Origin: Candidatus Methylacidiphilales bacterium
GTDB taxonomy: Bacteria > Verrucomicrobiota > Verrucomicrobiia > Methylacidiphilales > CAZTYG01
Reading direction: 5' to 3'
NCBI GenBank assembly: GCA_033875315.1
Contig: JANRJG010000042.1
Span: 1-64,000, forward strand
DNA: 64,000 nt
Below the pieces are notes generated by a model that saw only the letters and a list, made by a program, of their open reading frames with translations, did no database searches and was not told the origin of the DNA. Numbering within the stretch: the first letter of the stretch is position 1; every line of letters starts with the position of its first letter. The translations under genes and the position numbers were made by a program. This document shows positions 17,557 through 59,058 of the stretch, piece by piece.

Positions 17557-20304
17557 TCAACCCACCACCGCCCCGGTGCAACGGGGACAAAGTTCCGGAT
17601 GCTCCGGATGTGAGCCCAACTCCGGGAAGAATTTCCAACAACGAACACATTTCCGGCCCGGATGCCTCATGGCCACCACTTCCATCGTCCCCTGCCCCTG
17701 CTCTTTCTCCTTCGCCTCCCCTGCCAAGAGATTCACTTCGGAAACCAGGCAAACCTCGGCCAGCAAAGCAGCGTCTGACGGCGAAAAACCAGAGGCGCTG
17801 ACCTCCAAGGCCGCCTCCAGATTCTTTCCGATGATTTTTTCACGCCGCAGGGCTTCCAACTTTTCATTCGCGGCCGACCGCAATGCCAGGATTTTCTCCC
17901 AACGAGCGACAAAACCCTCCGGCAGCACCGGCTTGTGGGCCACCGGGAAATCCTGGAGGTGCACCGAATCACGCACTAACCCGGCGGTCTGCCACTCGCC
18001 CGACCGGTTCGATGCCATGAACTGCCAGGCCTCTTCGGCCGTGAACGGGGTGATCGGCGCCAGCAACCGGCATAAAGTGTCCAACACCGCATGCATCACT
18101 GTCTGCGAGGACCGGCGGCGAGCGCCACCGTCCGGATCACAATACATGCGGTCCTTCAGGACATCGACGTAGAAGGCCGAGAGATCGACCGCGCAGAAGC
18201 GGTTGATGGCCTGGTAGGCCTGGTAGAACTCATAGTCGTCGTAGGCCTTCCGCACCGCGGCAACAACTTCCTGCAGGCGGTCGAACAGGTAGAGGTCGAT
18301 CTCGTCCAGATCCTTCACGGCAATGGAATGCAGCGCGGGGTCGAATCCATCGAGGTTGGCCAGCAGGATGCGCAGGGTGTTGCGGACGGACCGGTAAGTG
18401 TCCGCCACACGCGAAAGGATGTTCTTCGAAAAAGGCACGTCGTTGGTGTAGTCCTGGCTGGCCACCCACAGGCGGAGCACATCGGCCCCATACTCACCCA
18501 CCAGAGTGGTCGAATCCGTGGCCCCGCTGGATTTGGAATACTTTTTGCCCTGTTCATCCACGATGAACCCGTGGGTCAGGACGCTGCGGTAGGGCGCACA
18601 TCCGTTCGTCATGACCGAAAGGCACAGCGATGAGTTGAACCACCCCCGGTGTTGGTCGCTGCCCTCGAGATAAAGGTCGGCCGGAAAGGAAAGGCGCTTC
18701 TTCACCACCGCGGCCTGGCTGGAACCGGAATCGATCCAGACATCGAGCGTGTCCCGGCCTTTGGTGAGTCCAGCGGGCAGTCCGAGCCGGGCTGCCAACG
18801 CATCGGCACCGGTCTTGAACCAGACGTCGGTCCCTTCCTTCTCCACCAGATCCGCGAAAGCGCGCACGGATGCTTCGGTCATCACGGGTTGGCCTGCCTG
18901 ATCAAAAAACGCAGGGATCGGGATGCCCCAGGAACGCTGCCGGGAAATGCACCAGTCCGGACGCGAGGAAACGGCCCCATGAATGCGGTTGCGGCCCCAA
19001 GCGGGTATCCAGCGCACCCGGTCGATTTCCTCCAAGGCCGTGGCCCGGAAGGCGTCCACCTTGATGAACCATTGCGGCACCGAGCGGAAAACGATGGGCG
19101 TCTTTGAACGCCAACAATGCGGGTAGTCATGCACGTAATCTTCCCTCGCCCAAAGACGGTCCTTCACCTCCAAAAGGCCGATGACCAGGGGATTGGCCTT
19201 GAATACGTACTGGCCGACCAACTCCGGCACGCCGCAGGCCTCGGTCAGACACCCCCGGTCATCCACGGGCGAAAACGCCTCCAGCCCGTGCTGTTTTCCG
19301 AGGAAATAGTCGTCCGCACCATGTCCGGGAGCGATGTGGACGATGCCCGTTCCCGCATCGGCGGTGACAAAATCCGCCGGATAAACATTCCCGGTCCGTT
19401 CCAAGAAGGGATGGTGATAGGTCGCTCCGACCAATTTGGTCCCGGCAAAGGATGTACCCAAAAGCCGGCACCCCTCAAATCCCGGCGCTTTGCCCGCGAG
19501 ATCGGTCTGCACCACCATCTTGACGCCATTGACTTCGTAGACCCCGTAGGAAAGCTTCTCCGAGACAGCCACCGCCAGGTTGGCCGGCAGCGTCCACGGC
19601 GTGGTCGTCCATACCAAAAGCGATGTCTTTTCGGGAACGCCAAGTTTTTGCGCGCTCTCCATCGTAAGAGGAAATTTCACAAAAATCGCCGGATCGGTCT
19701 TCTCCACGTATTCCACTTCGGCCTCGGCCAGTGCGGTCTGGCAGCCGGTGCTCCACGAGACCGGTCGCAACCCCTGATAAACAAGATCCCGGCCAACGAT
19801 GGAGGCAAATCCGCGCAGCACTTCCGCCTCATAGCCCGGGTCCATGGTGATGTAGGGATTTTCCCAGTCGGCCAGCATGCCCAGTCGGCGGAACTGCCCG
19901 CGTTGGATGTCGATGAACTTGCGCGCCATTTCCGCGCTTTTCTCCCGGATCTTCACCGGATCACCGCCCTGGTCGCCCAGTTCCTTGACCACCTTGTGCT
20001 CGATGGGCAACCCATGGCAGTCCCATCCCGGGATCATCGGGACACGGAACCCGGCCATGTTGCGGGTCTTGGCCACCAGATCCTTGAGGGTGAAACTGAG
20101 CACATGCCCGATGTGCGCATCCCCGTTGGCAAACGGTGGTCCCAGATGGAAGATGAACGGCGGCGACCCGGCCCGCTTCTCCTGGATCTTTGCATACAAG
20201 CCGCTGCGTTCCCACAGGGCCAGCAGGTGGGGTTCACGCTTGGCCAGGTCCGCCTTCATGGGAAAGGCCGTTTCGGGAAGTTGCAGGGTGCTCTTGTAGT
20301 CCAT
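17557..20304 (-). CDS. ileS: Isoleucyl-tRNA synthetase
   Basis: Class I aminoacyl-tRNA synthetase charging tRNA-Ile, with a CP1 editing domain. With the ATG at 20304 it has 915 aa. The HIGH motif appears as DAHIGH in the N-terminal Rossmann domain, and the second signature appears as KYSKS, a common variant of KMSKS. A zinc finger closes the C-terminus (CVRC and CPRC about 20 residues apart). I reject the upstream TTG at 20337 because homology starts at the later Met. It is co-oriented with lspA, 3 nt apart. No T-box leader is seen upstream. Confidence 0.96.
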   Translation of the reverse strand: MDYKSTLQLPETAFPMKADLAKREPHLLALWERSGLYAKIQEKRAGSPPFIFHLGPPFANGDAHIGHVLSFTLKDLVAKTRNMAGFRVPMIPGWDCHGLPIEHKVVKELGDQGGDPVKIREKSAEMARKFIDIQRGQFRRLGMLADWENPYITMDPGYEAEVLRGFASIVGRDLVYQGLRPVSWSTGCQTALAEAEVEYVEKTDPAIFVKFPLTMESAQKLGVPEKTSLLVWTTTPWTLPANLAVAVSEKLSYGVYEVNGVKMVVQTDLAGKAPGFEGCRLLGTSFAGTKLVGATYHHPFLERTGNVYPADFVTADAGTGIVHIAPGHGADDYFLGKQHGLEAFSPVDDRGCLTEACGVPELVGQYVFKANPLVIGLLEVKDRLWAREDYVHDYPHCWRSKTPIVFRSVPQWFIKVDAFRATALEEIDRVRWIPAWGRNRIHGAVSSRPDWCISRQRSWGIPIPAFFDQAGQPVMTEASVRAFADLVEKEGTDVWFKTGADALAARLGLPAGLTKGRDTLDVWIDSGSSQAAVVKKRLSFPADLYLEGSDQHRGWFNSSLCLSVMTNGCAPYRSVLTHGFIVDEQGKKYSKSSGATDSTTLVGEYGADVLRLWVASQDYTNDVPFSKNILSRVADTYRSVRNTLRILLANLDGFDPALHSIAVKDLDEIDLYLFDRLQEVVAAVRKAYDDYEFYQAYQAINRFCAVDLSAFYVDVLKDRMYCDPDGGARRRSSQTVMHAVLDTLCRLLAPITPFTAEEAWQFMASNRSGEWQTAGLVRDSVHLQDFPVAHKPVLPEGFVARWEKILALRSAANEKLEALRREKIIGKNLEAALEVSASGFSPSDAALLAEVCLVSEVNLLAGEAKEKEQGQGTMEVVAMRHPGRKCVRCWKFFPELGSHPEHPELCPRCTGAVVG

Positions 20305-21408: not shown

Positions 21409-23139
<1,731 letters not shown>

Positions 23140-23168
23140 TTCTTATCCAAACGGATGCTGCTCTTTTT

Positions 23169-23265
23169 AACATGAAGCGCGCGAAGGCCACGAAGACAGA
23201 CAGGTATTGGCGGGCAAAACTCCATTCAGCGATCAGGAGTTTGTGCTTCGTGCTTTGCGGTGAAC
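23169..23265. repeat. Dispersed nonamer-bounded element, copy A (internally shortened)
   Basis: The left end carries three reverse-complement nonamers of the form CTTCRYGNN (23169-23195); the right end reads CTTCGTG-CTTTGCGGT-GAAC (23246-23265). The middle (23202-23239) matches the reverse complement of 24908-24946 at about 32 of 38 positions. Copy A therefore is an inverted, internally shorter relative of copy B. It fills nearly the whole gap between deaD and the AraC gene. Confidence 0.7.
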
Positions 23266-23277
23266 AGCCTTACGGCT
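23266..23277 (-). terminator. Small hairpin with the AraC-gene stop codon in its loop
   Basis: AGCC (23266-23269) and GGCT (23274-23277) flank a four-base loop that contains the TAA stop of the AraC-type gene. An alternative CAGCC/GGCTG pairing (23265-23269 with 23280-23284) is also possible. The stem is short and no T-tract follows, so it is listed mainly as part of the stop-in-hairpin pattern. Confidence 0.3.
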
Positions 23278-24127
23278 CCGGCTGCCGGTGCACCTTCCGG
23301 TAATCCCGCGGGGTGACCCCCGTTTCCTTGCGGAAGGCCCGCGAAAAATACAGCGGGTCCCCGTAACCACAGGCGGCGGCGACTTCCGCCACCGCCTTGC
23401 GTGTCTCCACCAGCAGGCGTTTGGCCTCGCGGATGCGCAGGCTTTGCAAGTACTGTCCCGGGGCCACCCGCACCACCTGCTTCCATCGCCTCCGGAACGT
23501 GGCCGGTGACAAGCCCTGCCTCGCCGCGACCTCGTCCCAGTCCACTTCCTGGGATAAGCGCCGCCGGACTTGTTGCCGGATGGCCGCGACCGCCCGCTCC
23601 GCCGGATCGGGTTCGGGATGGGACTGCCCCAAAAGACTGTCCAAGATCATCGATTCGCAGATCCGGTCCACCCGGTCGGCCGATCCTTCGACGGCCCCAT
23701 CCCCCATGGCCTGCTGCAATTCCTCGCATCTTTCCAACAAACGCCTGACATCCTGGATACGCCAAATGGGTTTGTCCGTGTGGACAAACCCCATCTTCCG
23801 GAAGGCCCCCACCAGCCGTCCCGGGTAAACCACGTAGAGTTCCTCCCAGCTCTCATGACCATCGGCCGGGCCGTAGGCCACCGGATCACCCGGCCACTGC
23901 ATCAACACCGCCGGCGCGGCAAACTTCCACCTTCTCCCTCCCCTCCGGTATTCCCCTCCGCCCGAAAGGATGAAAGAGTAGTTGCAGGTCGGAAAGGTCG
24001 TACGGACCCACTCCGTCTTTCGGCCGATGTAGCCTATGGTGGAAACCGGGAAAGGGGACGGATAACGGCGCAACAACGGGGCCCAATGTCTGATCAAAAA
24101 GTCCATATTTTCGATTAAAGCCTCCAT
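23270..24127 (-). CDS. AraC-family transcriptional regulator
   Basis: A 285 aa DNA-binding regulator. The first ~160 residues form an AraC-type cupin sensor domain (CNYSFILSGGGEYRRGGRRW, read as strands). The last ~100 residues carry two helix-turn-helix units (VDWDEVAARQGLSPATFRRRW and VAEVAAACGYGDPLYFSRAF), ending with the family signature F-R-K-E-T-G-V-T-P. It is divergent from the ThuA-like gene with only 41 nt between the starts, so it likely controls that gene and the Gfo/Idh gene beyond. The ligand, probably a sugar or sugar derivative, is inferred from the context only. Confidence 0.88.
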   Translation of the reverse strand: MEALIENMDFLIRHWAPLLRRYPSPFPVSTIGYIGRKTEWVRTTFPTCNYSFILSGGGEYRRGGRRWKFAAPAVLMQWPGDPVAYGPADGHESWEELYVVYPGRLVGAFRKMGFVHTDKPIWRIQDVRRLLERCEELQQAMGDGAVEGSADRVDRICESMILDSLLGQSHPEPDPAERAVAAIRQQVRRRLSQEVDWDEVAARQGLSPATFRRRWKQVVRVAPGQYLQSLRIREAKRLLVETRKAVAEVAAACGYGDPLYFSRAFRKETGVTPRDYRKVHRQPEP

Positions 24128-24168
24128 TCCCCTCTGACAATATCTATCTACGATGAACGGATTACTCC

Positions 24169-24807
24169 ATGAAGCGCAAAGCCCTCATCCTGGCCGGCGG
24201 GTGGCCCGGCCACCATCCGGAAAGCATCGCCGACCTCTTCCAAGCAGACTTGGCCACCGCCGGATTCAATGTTCAGGTGGAAAAATCCCTCGATCCCCTG
24301 GCCGATGCCTCCCTGCCTACCTATGACCTCATCTTCCCCTGTTGGACCATGGGTCAGTTGACCGACGTACAAAGCAAGGGTCTCCAAGCCGCCGTTCGCA
24401 GCGGCTCCGGCCTCGGCGGCATCCACGGGGGCATGGGCGATGCTTTCCGCGGAAACCTCGACTACGAATGGATGGTCGGCGGACACTTCGTCGGCCACCC
24501 GCACGTCGGCGATTACACCGTCCGCCTCAGGGTCATCGGTGATGAAATCACCGAAGGCATGCCGGAAGAATTTCCCTACCGATCCGAGCAATACTACATG
24601 ATGGTCGACCCCGGCATACGCGTCCTGGCAGAGACCGTCTACACCTACGAAGGCCACACCTGTGCCATGCCCGTCGTCTGGACCAAACAATGGGGCGCGG
24701 GCCGCGTCTTTTACAATGCCCTCGGCCATGATCCCAAAGAATTCCTCGACCATCCCCACGTCCGCCAGATGACTGTCCGCGGCCTCCTCTGGGCCGCACG
24801 TTCCTGA
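24169..24807 (+). CDS. ThuA-like domain protein
   Basis: A 212 aa soluble protein of the ThuA (trehalose utilisation) family, with a class I glutamine-amidotransferase-like fold. Visible blocks are ALILAGGWPGHHPES, GSGLGGIHGGMGDAF in place of the nucleophile elbow, MVGGHFVGHP, and WTKQWGAGRVFYNALGHD near the C-terminus. The usual catalytic Cys is absent, as in most ThuA proteins. ThuA family members help convert 3-keto sugars in Rhizobiales. It lies beside a Gfo/Idh/MocA oxidoreductase that could generate or consume a 3-keto sugar, and under a likely AraC regulator. Confidence 0.85.
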   Translation: MKRKALILAGGWPGHHPESIADLFQADLATAGFNVQVEKSLDPLADASLPTYDLIFPCWTMGQLTDVQSKGLQAAVRSGSGLGGIHGGMGDAFRGNLDYEWMVGGHFVGHPHVGDYTVRLRVIGDEITEGMPEEFPYRSEQYYMMVDPGIRVLAETVYTYEGHTCAMPVVWTKQWGAGRVFYNALGHDPKEFLDHPHVRQMTVRGLLWAARS

Positions 24808-24821
24808 ATTGGCACAAGGCA

Positions 24822-24984
24822 GTTCACCGCGAAGCAGAACCACATGATTGGAAATACCTTTTTTAGTACTCCAACCCCGATGTATAAGGATCGGGGTTGG
24901 ATTCATGCTCATCGATCGGTGAATGAAGTTTTGCCAGCCAATACCCGTATGCCTTCGCGAACTTCGTGTTCTTCGTGGTAAAAC
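24822..24984. repeat. Dispersed nonamer-bounded element, copy B (163 bp)
   Basis: The left end reads, in reverse complement, CTTCGCGGT-GAAC; the right end has CTTCGCGAA, CTTCGTGTT, CTTCGTGGT and AAAAC. Between them are a perfect 11-bp stem with an 8-nt loop (24871-24900) and the segment shared with copy A (24908-24946). It sits in the 216 bp gap between thuA and the Gfo/Idh gene, where no gene is seen, and the hairpin could attenuate or end transcription, though T residues lie before rather than after it. Confidence 0.7.
24871..24900. terminator. Perfect 11-bp hairpin inside repeat copy B
   Basis: CCAACCCCGAT (24871-24881) and ATCGGGGTTGG (24890-24900) are exact reverse complements around an 8-nt loop. 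A T run is at 24859-24864, upstream on the plus strand, and none follows. It may be a transcript-end or processing structure, or simply part of the repeat. Confidence 0.45.
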
Positions 24985-25023
24985 AACCTCATCTAAGCGG
25001 CTGAGAACCACCCAACGATTTTT

Positions 25024-26058
25024 ATGAAAACCTACGCCAAAGCCAAAGACATCAAGGTCGGCGTCGTCGGATACGGCGGCGCCTTCAACATGGGACGCCA
25101 GCACCTCAAGGAAATGCAGGCCGCCGGCATGACCCCGGTCGCCGTGGCTGAAGTCGACCCCGCACGGCTCGCCGTGGCCACACAGGATTTTCCCGGCATC
25201 CAGACCTACGCAACCGTCGCGGAAATGCTGAAGAAGTCCGATGTCGAGTTGATCGTGCTCATCACCCCGCACAACACCCACGCCCCCCTCGCCCTCCAGT
25301 GCCTGAAGGCCGGACGCCATGTCGTTAGCGAAAAACCCCTCGCCATCACCACCGTCGAGGTCGATGCCATGATCACCGCGGCCAAAAAATCCGGCGTCAT
25401 GCTCTCCACCTACCACAACCGCCATTGGGATGGCCGCATCCTCCAGGCGGTCGAACTGGTCAAAAAGAAAAAAACCATCGGCGACATCCTCCGCATCGAA
25501 TGCCACATGGGCGGCTACAACAAGCCCGGGGATTGGTGGCGCAGCAGCCGCAGCATTTCCGGCGGCATCCTTTACGATTGGGGGGTCCATCTTTTGGAAT
25601 ACTCCTTGCAACTCATCGACGCTCCCGTGACCGAAGTCAGCGGCTTCGCCCACCAGGGCTTCTGGGGCCCCAAGACCCCCTGGGGCAAGGACGCCAATGA
25701 AGACGAGGGTTTCGCCGTGGTTCGTTTCCAAAGCGGCCAGTGGCTGACCCTCTGCATCACCCAGATCGATTCCAAGGGCAAGGATGGCTGGGTGGAAATC
25801 ACCGGCACGAAGGGGACCCTGCTCCTGGACGGCCCGCACTCCACCCTCTACCAACACGCCGACGGAAAATCCCTCACCACCCGCCTGCCCAATCCGAAGG
25901 ATGAGGGCGCGAGATACTACCAAAACGTGGCCCGCCACTTGGTGAAGGGGGAGAAGCTCGTCATCACCGGCGAATGGTCCCGCCGCCCGATCCACATCCT
26001 GGACTTGGCCGCCCAAAGCGCCAAGAAAGGCAAATCCCTCCCGGCCAAATACGGCTGA
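25024..26058 (+). CDS. Gfo/Idh/MocA family oxidoreductase
   Basis: NAD(P)-dependent sugar or inositol dehydrogenase-like protein of 344 aa. The Rossmann fold is at the N-terminus (VGVVGYGGAFNMG), and SEKPLAIT around 102-109 is the EKP catalytic motif. The C-terminal alpha/beta domain contains GGILYDWGVHLLEYSLQLI, read as the family GG-x-x-x-D-x-G-x-H-x-x-D-like region. The substrate cannot be read from sequence. Its position after a ThuA gene and an AraC regulator fits 3-keto-sugar chemistry. Between it and ThuA lies a repeat element with a hairpin, so co-transcription is uncertain. Confidence 0.88.
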   Translation: MKTYAKAKDIKVGVVGYGGAFNMGRQHLKEMQAAGMTPVAVAEVDPARLAVATQDFPGIQTYATVAEMLKKSDVELIVLITPHNTHAPLALQCLKAGRHVVSEKPLAITTVEVDAMITAAKKSGVMLSTYHNRHWDGRILQAVELVKKKKTIGDILRIECHMGGYNKPGDWWRSSRSISGGILYDWGVHLLEYSLQLIDAPVTEVSGFAHQGFWGPKTPWGKDANEDEGFAVVRFQSGQWLTLCITQIDSKGKDGWVEITGTKGTLLLDGPHSTLYQHADGKSLTTRLPNPKDEGARYYQNVARHLVKGEKLVITGEWSRRPIHILDLAAQSAKKGKSLPAKYG

Positions 26059-56626: not shown

Positions 56627-56655
56627 CTGTCCGCTCAAGCCATAACGATGCCGTT

Positions 56656-56826
56656 GCTCACCGCGAAGATCGCGAAGGACGCGATGTATTTGGGACTTGG
56701 ATACTGAAAAAATTCAATTCACCAGTCGGTGAGTCTGAATCCGAGGGCAATGAGCTTGAATGGCTCTGTATTTTATTCATATCCAACTATTTCGACTTCG
56801 CGCCCTTCGCGCCCTTCGTGGTGAAC
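56656..56826. repeat. Dispersed nonamer-bounded element, copy C (171 bp)
   Basis: The left end reads in reverse complement CTTCGCGAT, CTTCGCGGT, GAG; the right end reads CTTCGCGCC, CTTCGCGCC, CTTCGTGGT, GAAC (56796-56826). The middle holds AATTCACC-AGTCGGTGAG (about 56716-56734), akin to a segment of copies A and B. It fills the 206 bp gap between the MntR gene and the P-type ATPase gene, which otherwise has no gene. Confidence 0.65.
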
Positions 56827-56832
56827 AACCGC

Positions 56833-59058
56833 TCAACGCCGGAAAAGCAGGCGCAGGCTGTTGAGACAAACCAGCACCGTACTACCCTCGTGGGCCATCA
56901 CGCCGAGGCTGAGGGGGATTTTCCCGGTCAAAGACCCCAACGCCATCACGACCACCGTACCAAAGGCCACGACCAAATTTTGTCGGATGATGGTGCGGGC
57001 CCTGCGGCTGAGCAGGTAGGCCTTCAGGAAAAGATCGATGCGGTCGTTCATGAGCACAACGTCGCTTTGCTCGACCGCGGCATCGCTGCCCCTGGCCCCC
57101 ATGCCGACAGCCACTTGGGCCGCGGCCAGGCTGGGCGCATCATTGATTCCGTCGCCCACCATGGCCACCACATGGCCCTCGCGGGTCAACTCCTCGATGG
57201 CGCGCACTTTGTCCGCAGGCAACAACCCGCCGCGGATATCCTTGGCATCGAGCCCGATCTCCGCCCCGACCTGGTCCGCCACCTGCTGCCGGTCCCCGGT
57301 CAACATGACGGTGCGCAGCCCGAGTTCATGCAACGATTCCAGCACCGGCTTGGATTCCACGCGCACCCGGTCGCGCAGGAGCATGCGTCCCAGAACATCG
57401 CCCTTGAGAATCCAGATTTCGCTGCAGGCCGCTTCGGGAAGGGGCACGGCATCGACCAGAGCGGCCACCGCCCCCTGGGCCACCAGTTCACGACGACCGA
57501 TGACGCACAATTCCCCGTTCAGCCGTGCACTCACGCCCTGGCCGGTGTGGTTTTGGAAATCGCCCACCCCGAGGTCGCTCAATCCCTGCTTGCGTCCGTA
57601 ACGCACGATGGCCCGGGCGATCGGGTGTGAAGCCTGCACTTCCATGCTGTAGGCAAGTTCGGCCACATCGCGTTCGCGACCCGGGGGCAGACTGAGGACC
57701 TGCTCGACTTCCAATTCGCCGGAGGTGAGGGTTCCGGTTTTGTCGAGGGCCACACAGTCGACACGAGCCAATTCTTCGACAGCCGCCCCGCCACGGAAAA
57801 GGAAACCCTGACGGGCACCGGCAGCGATGGCGGCCAGGATGGCGGAGGGGATGGAGAGAACGAGGGCGCACGGGCTCATGACCACCATCAAGGTCATAGC
57901 ACGGTAAAACGCGGAGTATCCATCGTTGTTCTCAAAAGGGGGGACCTTGAGAACGATCCACCAAACAAAAAACATCAATGCCGTGCAGCCCAGAACCACC
58001 CAGGTGTAACCGGTGCCGAAACGGTCGGTGAACCGTTGAGCGGGGGCGCGGCGGTTTTGTGCGTTGCGGATGAGGTCGATGATTTTCTGCAACGCACTTT
58101 GCCGGAGCGGCCGGAGCACCCTGGCCTTGACCGAACCCCAGGTGTTGAGTGTGCCGCCGAACACCTCGTCGCCGGGATTCTTGGCCACTGGAAGACTCTC
58201 CCCGGTCAGGGCCGATTCATCGGCCGCCGTCTGGCCGTCGGTCAACAGCGAATCCACCGCGAACAAATCCCCCGGCCGCACGACGAGGATATCGCCCGGC
58301 TGGAGGGATTCGGCCGGGACCTCCTCCTCGGAGCCGTCGGACCGGAGGCGGATGGCATGGCGCGGGGTGGCCTTGAGCAGGGAGTCGATGGCTCCGCGGG
58401 TGCGGTGGGAAGCGTAGGCCTCCATGGCCCCGGAGGCGGAAAACAGGAAGAGCAGCAGGGCTCCCTCACCCCAGGCTCCCACCAACGAAGCTCCGGCGGC
58501 GACCGCCAGCATGAGGAAGTGAATATCCAGACGTCCACGGCGCAGGTTGTGCCAGGCATCCTCGGCCGCGTCGCGTCCACCGGCCAGCAGGGCTCCGGCA
58601 TAGAAGACCACATCCAGCCATGAAGGGCCCAATTGCAGCTTGTGCACCAGAAAACCGGAGACCAGCAGGGCCCCACAGATGCCGGCATAAGTGGCCAGTT
58701 CGCGCCAGTCCTCTTCTTCCTCCTCCTCCTCGAACCAATCCAGCTCCCGCCATTTCCAGAATGTCGGCGCCGTCGGGCACGTGGGCTTGCGCAATACCGT
58801 TCCGTCACCTTCCTTGTCCACGCGGATGGAGGGACTCAAACCGGTGCGTTGTTCCGGCAAGAGGGCCTCGACTTCGGCCAACGATTGGCGCAGGGCTTCC
58901 TGCAAGGCGGCGACATCGACATTCCCCAACGTGGCCACGCTCAGGCGGCGGTTTTCCGGGTCGATCCGCACCGCCTCGACCCCAGGCTGGGAAATGAGGA
59001 AACGCGACAGGCCGACCAGGCGCAAGTCGTCGGAATCAGCAGGTGCCGAGAAAGACAT
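56833..59058 (-). CDS. P1B-type heavy-metal ATPase, Co/Mn/Fe class (P1B-4-like)
   Basis: Metal efflux P-type ATPase of 741 aa. A ferredoxin-like HMA domain (about 12-62) lacks the CxxC metal site, and a run of seven Glu lies at 110-116. The phosphorylated Asp439 is in DKTGTLT; SHPIARAI is the P1B His-Pro motif. The membrane motif is SPC (395-397) rather than CPC, and HEGST is in the last helix region (His723), as in P1B-4 pumps for Co, Fe(II) or Mn such as CtpC and PfeT. Cu and Zn/Cd are less likely. Close to the Mn importer and MntR, so it may export excess Mn or Fe; no shared operator is seen. Confidence 0.85.
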   Translation of the reverse strand: MSFSAPADSDDLRLVGLSRFLISQPGVEAVRIDPENRRLSVATLGNVDVAALQEALRQSLAEVEALLPEQRTGLSPSIRVDKEGDGTVLRKPTCPTAPTFWKWRELDWFEEEEEEEDWRELATYAGICGALLVSGFLVHKLQLGPSWLDVVFYAGALLAGGRDAAEDAWHNLRRGRLDIHFLMLAVAAGASLVGAWGEGALLLFLFSASGAMEAYASHRTRGAIDSLLKATPRHAIRLRSDGSEEEVPAESLQPGDILVVRPGDLFAVDSLLTDGQTAADESALTGESLPVAKNPGDEVFGGTLNTWGSVKARVLRPLRQSALQKIIDLIRNAQNRRAPAQRFTDRFGTGYTWVVLGCTALMFFVWWIVLKVPPFENNDGYSAFYRAMTLMVVMSPCALVLSIPSAILAAIAAGARQGFLFRGGAAVEELARVDCVALDKTGTLTSGELEVEQVLSLPPGRERDVAELAYSMEVQASHPIARAIVRYGRKQGLSDLGVGDFQNHTGQGVSARLNGELCVIGRRELVAQGAVAALVDAVPLPEAACSEIWILKGDVLGRMLLRDRVRVESKPVLESLHELGLRTVMLTGDRQQVADQVGAEIGLDAKDIRGGLLPADKVRAIEELTREGHVVAMVGDGINDAPSLAAAQVAVGMGARGSDAAVEQSDVVLMNDRIDLFLKAYLLSRRARTIIRQNLVVAFGTVVVMALGSLTGKIPLSLGVMAHEGSTVLVCLNSLRLLFRR

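Follow-up and report, generated by a model that had tools for sequence, protein, structure and literature searches.

A decayed gene-less member of a dispersed family of array-bounded elements in a Methylacidiphilales genome, and the link of such elements to GxxExxY genes

What is the non-coding DNA that separates deaD from the next gene in this genome, and how did it come to be there? The window analyzed here (the whole stretch of 64,000 nucleotides from a contig of a Candidatus Methylacidiphilales bacterium) contains three related segments, called copies A, B and C, all located between protein genes. The initial annotation had described copy A as an element bounded by inverted arrays of a nonamer, with three units on the left and two imperfect units on the right, and had inferred a non-autonomous mobile or REP-like family. 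The features concerned are the following.

21409-23139, plus strand: deaD (DEAD-box RNA helicase), identified by Pfam; its stop codon is 3 bp upstream of copy A.
About 23143-23283, minus strand: copy A, whole extent, with type I consensus ends; gene-less, internally deleted and decayed, it fills the deaD-AraC gap.
23169-23195, minus strand: left nonamer array of copy A, three reverse-complement units (CATGAAG, CGCGAAG, CACGAAG), by direct reading.
23244-23265, plus strand: right nonamer array of copy A, two imperfect units with the end GTGAAC, by direct reading and scores.
23270-24127, minus strand: AraC-type regulator gene, from Pfam and ORF ends; its last codons and stop are supplied by copy A.
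24169-24807, plus strand: ThuA-domain gene (Pfam), immediately before copy B.
24806-25002, plus strand: copy B, gene-less, between the ThuA gene and the Gfo/Idh/MocA gene, with about 22 similar places in its own genome; the right array is intact (24953-24983) and the left one is worn to one unit.
25024-26058, plus strand: Gfo/Idh/MocA oxidoreductase gene (Pfam), after copy B.
56638-56845, minus strand: copy C, the best preserved in the window, with inverted arrays at 56656-56686 and 56796-56826.

Direct reading confirmed the nonamers described on both sides of copy A. The claimed match of its core to the reverse complement of copy B also held: a repeat search aligned 23165-23234 with the reverse complement of 24914-24983, at 80% over 70 nt, and a second arm, 23251-23271, with 24816-24836. 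Copy A is internally deleted, as its description as a shortened relative of copy B implied, and the absence of coding capacity was confirmed, the copies of the window being without ORF. The boundaries first proposed, 23169-23265, were corrected to about 23143-23283 because the family consensus (CTTAGCCGGAACAATGCAGTT...AACTGCATCGTTCCGGCTAAG) extends beyond the arrays. BLAST of copy A against its own genome found copies with E down to 2e-5. Copy A is a shortened, worn and gene-less member of a dispersed family of small elements.

The extent of this family was examined in the whole genome (3.15 Mb, 42 contigs). It contains 93 matches to the array pattern CTTCGNGNNCTTCGNGGT, at no more than one mismatch, but only 2 to its reversal. 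These 93 matches form 59 clusters, and where both ends are present their order is always minus then plus. With copy B as query, BLAST retrieved 22 further places, the best with E 3e-24; one of them at least (on contig C18) lies in the flanking gene and not in the element. The flanks of the array sites are unrelated across the many copies. Two kinds of site can be distinguished: type I, of about 200-215 bp, with a common core and longer ends, and type II, which consists only of arrays around a short unrelated interior. Copies A, B and C are of type I. The type I consensus is CTTAGCCGGAACAATGCAGTTCACCGCGAAGNNCGCGAAGNNCGCGAAG ... plus its inverse; intact copies are bounded by inverted CRCGAAGNN arrays, and the alignment of 21 type I copies places the consensus ends CTTAGCCGG...CCGGCTAAG outside the arrays. 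All three copies of the window meet the definition, i.e. tandem 8-10 bp units of CRCNNAG type, outward-pointing inverted arrays and ...GGT(G/A)AA outermost. The outcome that would have refuted a family, namely that only these three copies exist, did not occur, as the genome has some 22 close copies and some 59 sites with arrays.

Some sites show additional features. Three type I copies (L060, L069 and L082, on G000 contigs C11, C15 and C30) share an extra terminal hairpin, CGTCCCGT(G/C)ACCGCGTTGGTCACGCCGAACGGGACC, which looks like a fusion with a second repeat family. A further repeat (TATCCGGATAGGCTCT) directly adjoins several type I elements (flanks of L054, L056, L071 and L096). Among the type II sites of G000 (L055, L066, L070, L088, L094), many solo arrays stop about 5-20 nt from an apparent start codon and occupy the usual leader position.

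Short target duplications had been predicted at the boundaries; they were looked for and not found. In 18 type I copies the direct-repeat sum was 21 against 22.9 expected (p 0.66), the ends of decayed copies being uncertain by a few bases. MITEs of DDE transposons, like the Correia/NEMIS elements, are gene-less, carry terminal inverted repeats and reach many intergenic copies. The array elements resemble them in each of these points and in size (about 100-215 bp), but differ in that their ends are tandem arrays, no target-site duplication was detected and no link to a DDE transposase was found. Membership among DDE-transposon MITEs fails on the target-site duplication.

A gene-bearing form exists in the same genome. 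On contig C38, between atpA and atpG (both named from their translated flanks), CRCGAAG arrays enclose a GxxExxY ORF (19563-19913) in a 456-bp element; the ORF matches PF13366 (PDDEXK_3)/TIGR04256 with E 1e-43. Because this array cluster encloses a GxxExxY ORF, a general survey of GxxExxY flanks was undertaken, in which the 200 bp to the left of each gene were compared by alignment with the reverse-complemented 200 bp to its right, with a score threshold of at least 30. Inverted arrays flank 28 of 34 Verrucomicrobiota PF13366 loci, whereas of 127 control windows, shifted within the same loci by 900 bp, none is flanked. A set of 77 GxxExxY loci that spans many phyla of bacteria as well as methanogenic archaea yields 56 with such flanks, against none of 142 shifted windows. 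Comparable inverted arrays were thus absent from all 269 pooled shifted windows, and none of 24 ParE toxin genes, taken as a control, has array flanks at a score of 30 or more. About a quarter of GxxExxY loci lack strong inverted arrays. The best period of the element arms is 8-10 in 181 of 200 cases, and the median element span is 465 bp. Chance similarity of GC-rich sequence without conserved boundaries, which has nothing in its favour beyond the high G+C, is refuted by the reversed-pattern control and by these shifted windows, and can be all but excluded.

The same layout with different units surrounds genes for the S23 four-helix bundle (PF05635, the 23S-IVS protein) at 16 of 30 loci. S23 genes outside rRNA (e.g. 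L154, G000:C38:203129-203446; L134-L163) often lie within inverted tandem arrays of their own, whose units include GTGATGAGG, AGCTTAGAG, GGAGAACA and GTAGTGAG. This suggests that S23 genes of the IVS type are generally elements bounded by arrays. Two GxxExxY loci deserve separate mention. At L133 a 52-bp near-perfect inverted repeat (GTTACGCGATTTTGACAAATGG...) brackets the GxxExxY element outside its arrays. In an Akkermansia-like genome (L294, G051:C30:33000-37200), a variable island holds two GxxExxY genes together with several array fragments, which recur elsewhere in that genome with 73-96% likeness; comparison within this Akkermansia-like genus revealed a complex variable island, and no clean empty site was found.

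No function is known for the GxxExxY family (TIGR04256/PF13366 PDDEXK_3), and a paper that mentions it does so in passing and without reference to repeats. Its D, ExK and QxxxY residues are invariant in sets of 28 and 59 sequences. For a close relative (L217), an AlphaFold model with pLDDT 94.6 gave Cas4, lambda exonuclease, RecE and AdnAB as best Foldseek matches in the PDB, with probabilities of 0.95-1.0 and E values of 2e-3 to 2e-2 for Cas4 and lambda exonuclease; as the E values overall are only about 2e-3 to 5e-2, we treat the match as an assignment of fold class. A sequence search of the PDB gave no match, GxxExxY having no solved close relative there. From this model GxxExxY is predicted to be a PD-(D/E)XK nuclease of the RecB/Cas4/lambda-exonuclease branch, the features of that class being met by both residues and fold. 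GxxExxY was absent from 50,697 phage records and present in 7 of 72,556 plasmids, and the possibility that it is plasmid- or phage-borne cargo was rejected on these counts.

These results refine the REP-like part of the initial annotation: the gene-bearing relatives encode GxxExxY and neither a RAYT nor a DDE transposase. Among the closest known kinds of element are still the repeats of REP/BIME type, which a RAYT (an IS200/IS605-like Y1, or HUH, transposase) moves. Like them, the array elements are short, dispersed, palindromic and extragenic and show no target duplication, and by inference they rely on a single-domain nuclease whose gene lies elsewhere in the genome. This genome also has three weak Y1_Tnp hits, which might favour a RAYT as mover. 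However, none of the three Y1_Tnp loci has arrays or AGCCGG ends within 1.5 kb, the ends are inverted tandem arrays, the consensus lacks the GTAG/CGTC tag, and the associated nuclease is of the Cas4/RecB branch and not HUH. A RAYT mover is largely refuted by the Y1_Tnp loci without arrays or ends, and we consider it very unlikely.

The array unit follows the type of GxxExxY protein. GPGLLE-type proteins pair with CRCRGAG or CRCNAAG units, G[CS]GFLE-type proteins mostly with CACGAAA/CACGGAA and GFG[FY]LE-type proteins with ACAGGAT, and this pairing persists where different types share one genome. Unit and subfamily are correlated (Mantel r 0.33, reached in 0 of 2000 permutations), and mapping of the unit label on the protein tree required 16 changes against 33 when shuffled (0/200); this tree rests on few columns and many of its forks are unresolved. 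Arrays also multiply with the gene. Among 194 Verrucomicrobiota genomes, at least 5 hits to the pattern ACCRCRRAGNNCRCRRAG were found in 43 of the 110 with PF13366 and in none of the 84 without. The ACCRCRRAGNNCRCRRAG count is correlated with PF13366 (Spearman 0.58) and the reversed control pattern is unrelated to it. Some of these hits are the arrays flanking GxxExxY genes themselves; after subtraction of two hits per gene, 21 genomes keep at least 5 extra. The 43 genomes with S23 but without GxxExxY average 0.47 arrays. When families are taken one by one, arrays and gene go together in 11 of 12, and one (f20) shows the reverse. It remains possible that this co-occurrence reflects shared inheritance. 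The enclosure of GxxExxY by arrays and the lack of multiplied arrays in genomes without it suggest an undescribed kind of small mobile element.

A DNA search with copy B in 19 genomes of the same order found no copies outside its own genome, and consequently no direct empty sites are available for copies A, B and C. Filled and empty states were observed at the gatA-gatB junction, compared in one family of 80 genomes plus two others. In ten genomes the gatA stop and the gatB start are adjacent or overlapping (TGATGAACTACGAAGCC), with 14-19 nt from the stop to a fixed gatB point. Other genomes have gene-less inverted arrays at this junction, of types CACGAAA, CACGGAA, CGCGAAT, GTAGTGAG and CCAAGCTC. 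About twenty carry a GxxExxY gene there, mostly within CACAGAG arrays. In G018 (L413) GxxExxY is in fragments between CACAGAG-type arrays, a state intermediate between gene-bearing and gene-less elements, and in G245 an S23 gene lies inside GTAGTGAG-type arrays. Since the states differ among genomes, insertion or loss must have occurred, and elements with and without a gene are forms of the same thing. Within one family the GxxExxY copies at gatA-gatB fall mostly into a single clade, and one clade for all 20 is not rejected (AU p 0.41); they were in most cases probably inherited vertically and do not represent independent events. For this reason the case for independent insertions rests mainly on the differing array types. 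The array element is insertional and is linked to GxxExxY, and the many copies, their unrelated flanks and this presence or absence at one homologous site support the non-autonomous mobile or REP-like family originally proposed.

The link might nevertheless concern cargo and not an enzyme. In this alternative, which we consider less likely, it is the arrays that are mobile or act as hot spots, some other machinery of the host or of an element spreads them, and the GxxExxY and S23 genes are passengers captured between them. Two observations favour it: two unrelated protein families occur in the same architecture and at the same gatA-gatB site, and type I elements bear an extra terminal sequence (AGCCGGAACAATGCAGTT) outside the arrays. 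As this sequence is absent from the GxxExxY element, another enzyme might move type I. Against passengers stand the agreement of unit sequence with protein family and subfamily, the multiplication of GxxExxY-type arrays only where GxxExxY is present and not with S23 alone, and the invariant catalytic residues of GxxExxY.

A second alternative acts on RNA: the inverted arrays would form a transcript stem that is cut by RNase III or that stabilizes or terminates the message, and would be kept as harmless or useful. Several results agree with it. The GxxExxY ORF is in sense with the operon in 55 of 66 co-directional neighbourhoods and antisense in 11; type I ends abut gene 3' ends in 25 cases versus 5' ends in 10 (both counts relied on longest-ORF gene calls). 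The predicted folds of copies B and C surpass those of shuffled sequences (z -3.4 and z -6.1), the arms of copy C pairing into one long stem. Finally, the S23 IVS in the 23S rRNA of Coxiella burnetii, a 428-nt sequence with inverted ends and GACAGAT tandem heptamers, is excised by RNase III (PMC4990558). On the other hand, the fold is lost in copy A, which is no better than shuffles (z +0.83), and no T run follows the element ends, unlike an intrinsic terminator (direct reading). An RNA role alone also leaves unexplained the multiplication in the genome, the presence or absence at homologous sites and the dependence on the nuclease gene, and we consider it unlikely. Rfam had no match in 22900-25300, the region covering copies A and B.

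This S23 IVS is the closest element described so far. Like the 23S rRNA intervening sequences (about 430 nt), the array-bounded elements are small and selfish, with inverted ends that pair into a stem, as predicted for copy C but not for copy A, short tandem repeats (at the 5' end in Coxiella) and one small ORF that often decays, and the non-rRNA S23 genes found here share the inverted-array build. Unlike them, the copies of the window have no ORF and lie between protein genes, not in 23S rRNA; their array type belongs with GxxExxY and not with S23, whose elements have other units; and their family multiplies to dozens of copies.

Our preferred reading is that copy A is a decayed, non-autonomous member of a widespread group of small mobile elements whose gene-bearing form encodes GxxExxY; we give it a probability of about 0.6. 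In this reading GxxExxY would recognize its own array, probably as a single-stranded DNA (or RNA) hairpin of the long inverted repeat, and would process the element ends; elements with a matching array may thereby be copied or relocated to intergenic gaps, and those without a gene, among them A, B and C, would be served in trans. We lean towards such movement in trans by GxxExxY, but it is inferred from correlation only, without data on binding, cutting or movement. Element movement is itself an inference: no direct excision or transposition event between near-identical genomes was seen, the comparison set having no same-genus genome. No description of the link between GxxExxY and arrays was found in the open-access literature searched (subscription papers, preprints and database comments were outside its scope).

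These findings tie intergenic repeats that are very common but unexplained to a nuclease family that is conserved, lacks a known function and thereby gains a testable role and substrate. The 23S rRNA intervening sequences, long debated, are brought into a general pattern of selfish elements bounded by arrays, and many natural pairs of empty and filled sites, e.g. gatA-gatB, are on offer. A bolder reading, tentative and in our opinion just short of an even chance, is that a new class of transposable elements owes its mobility to GxxExxY, a stand-alone Cas4/RecB-like nuclease that would recognize lineage-specific inverted tandem arrays and spread them, with or without its own gene, in bacteria and archaea. 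If true, it would explain the common intergenic repeats of CACAGAGGA/CACGAAGNN type, and S23 genes, with arrays of their own, would form a second, parallel class that includes the rRNA intervening sequences.
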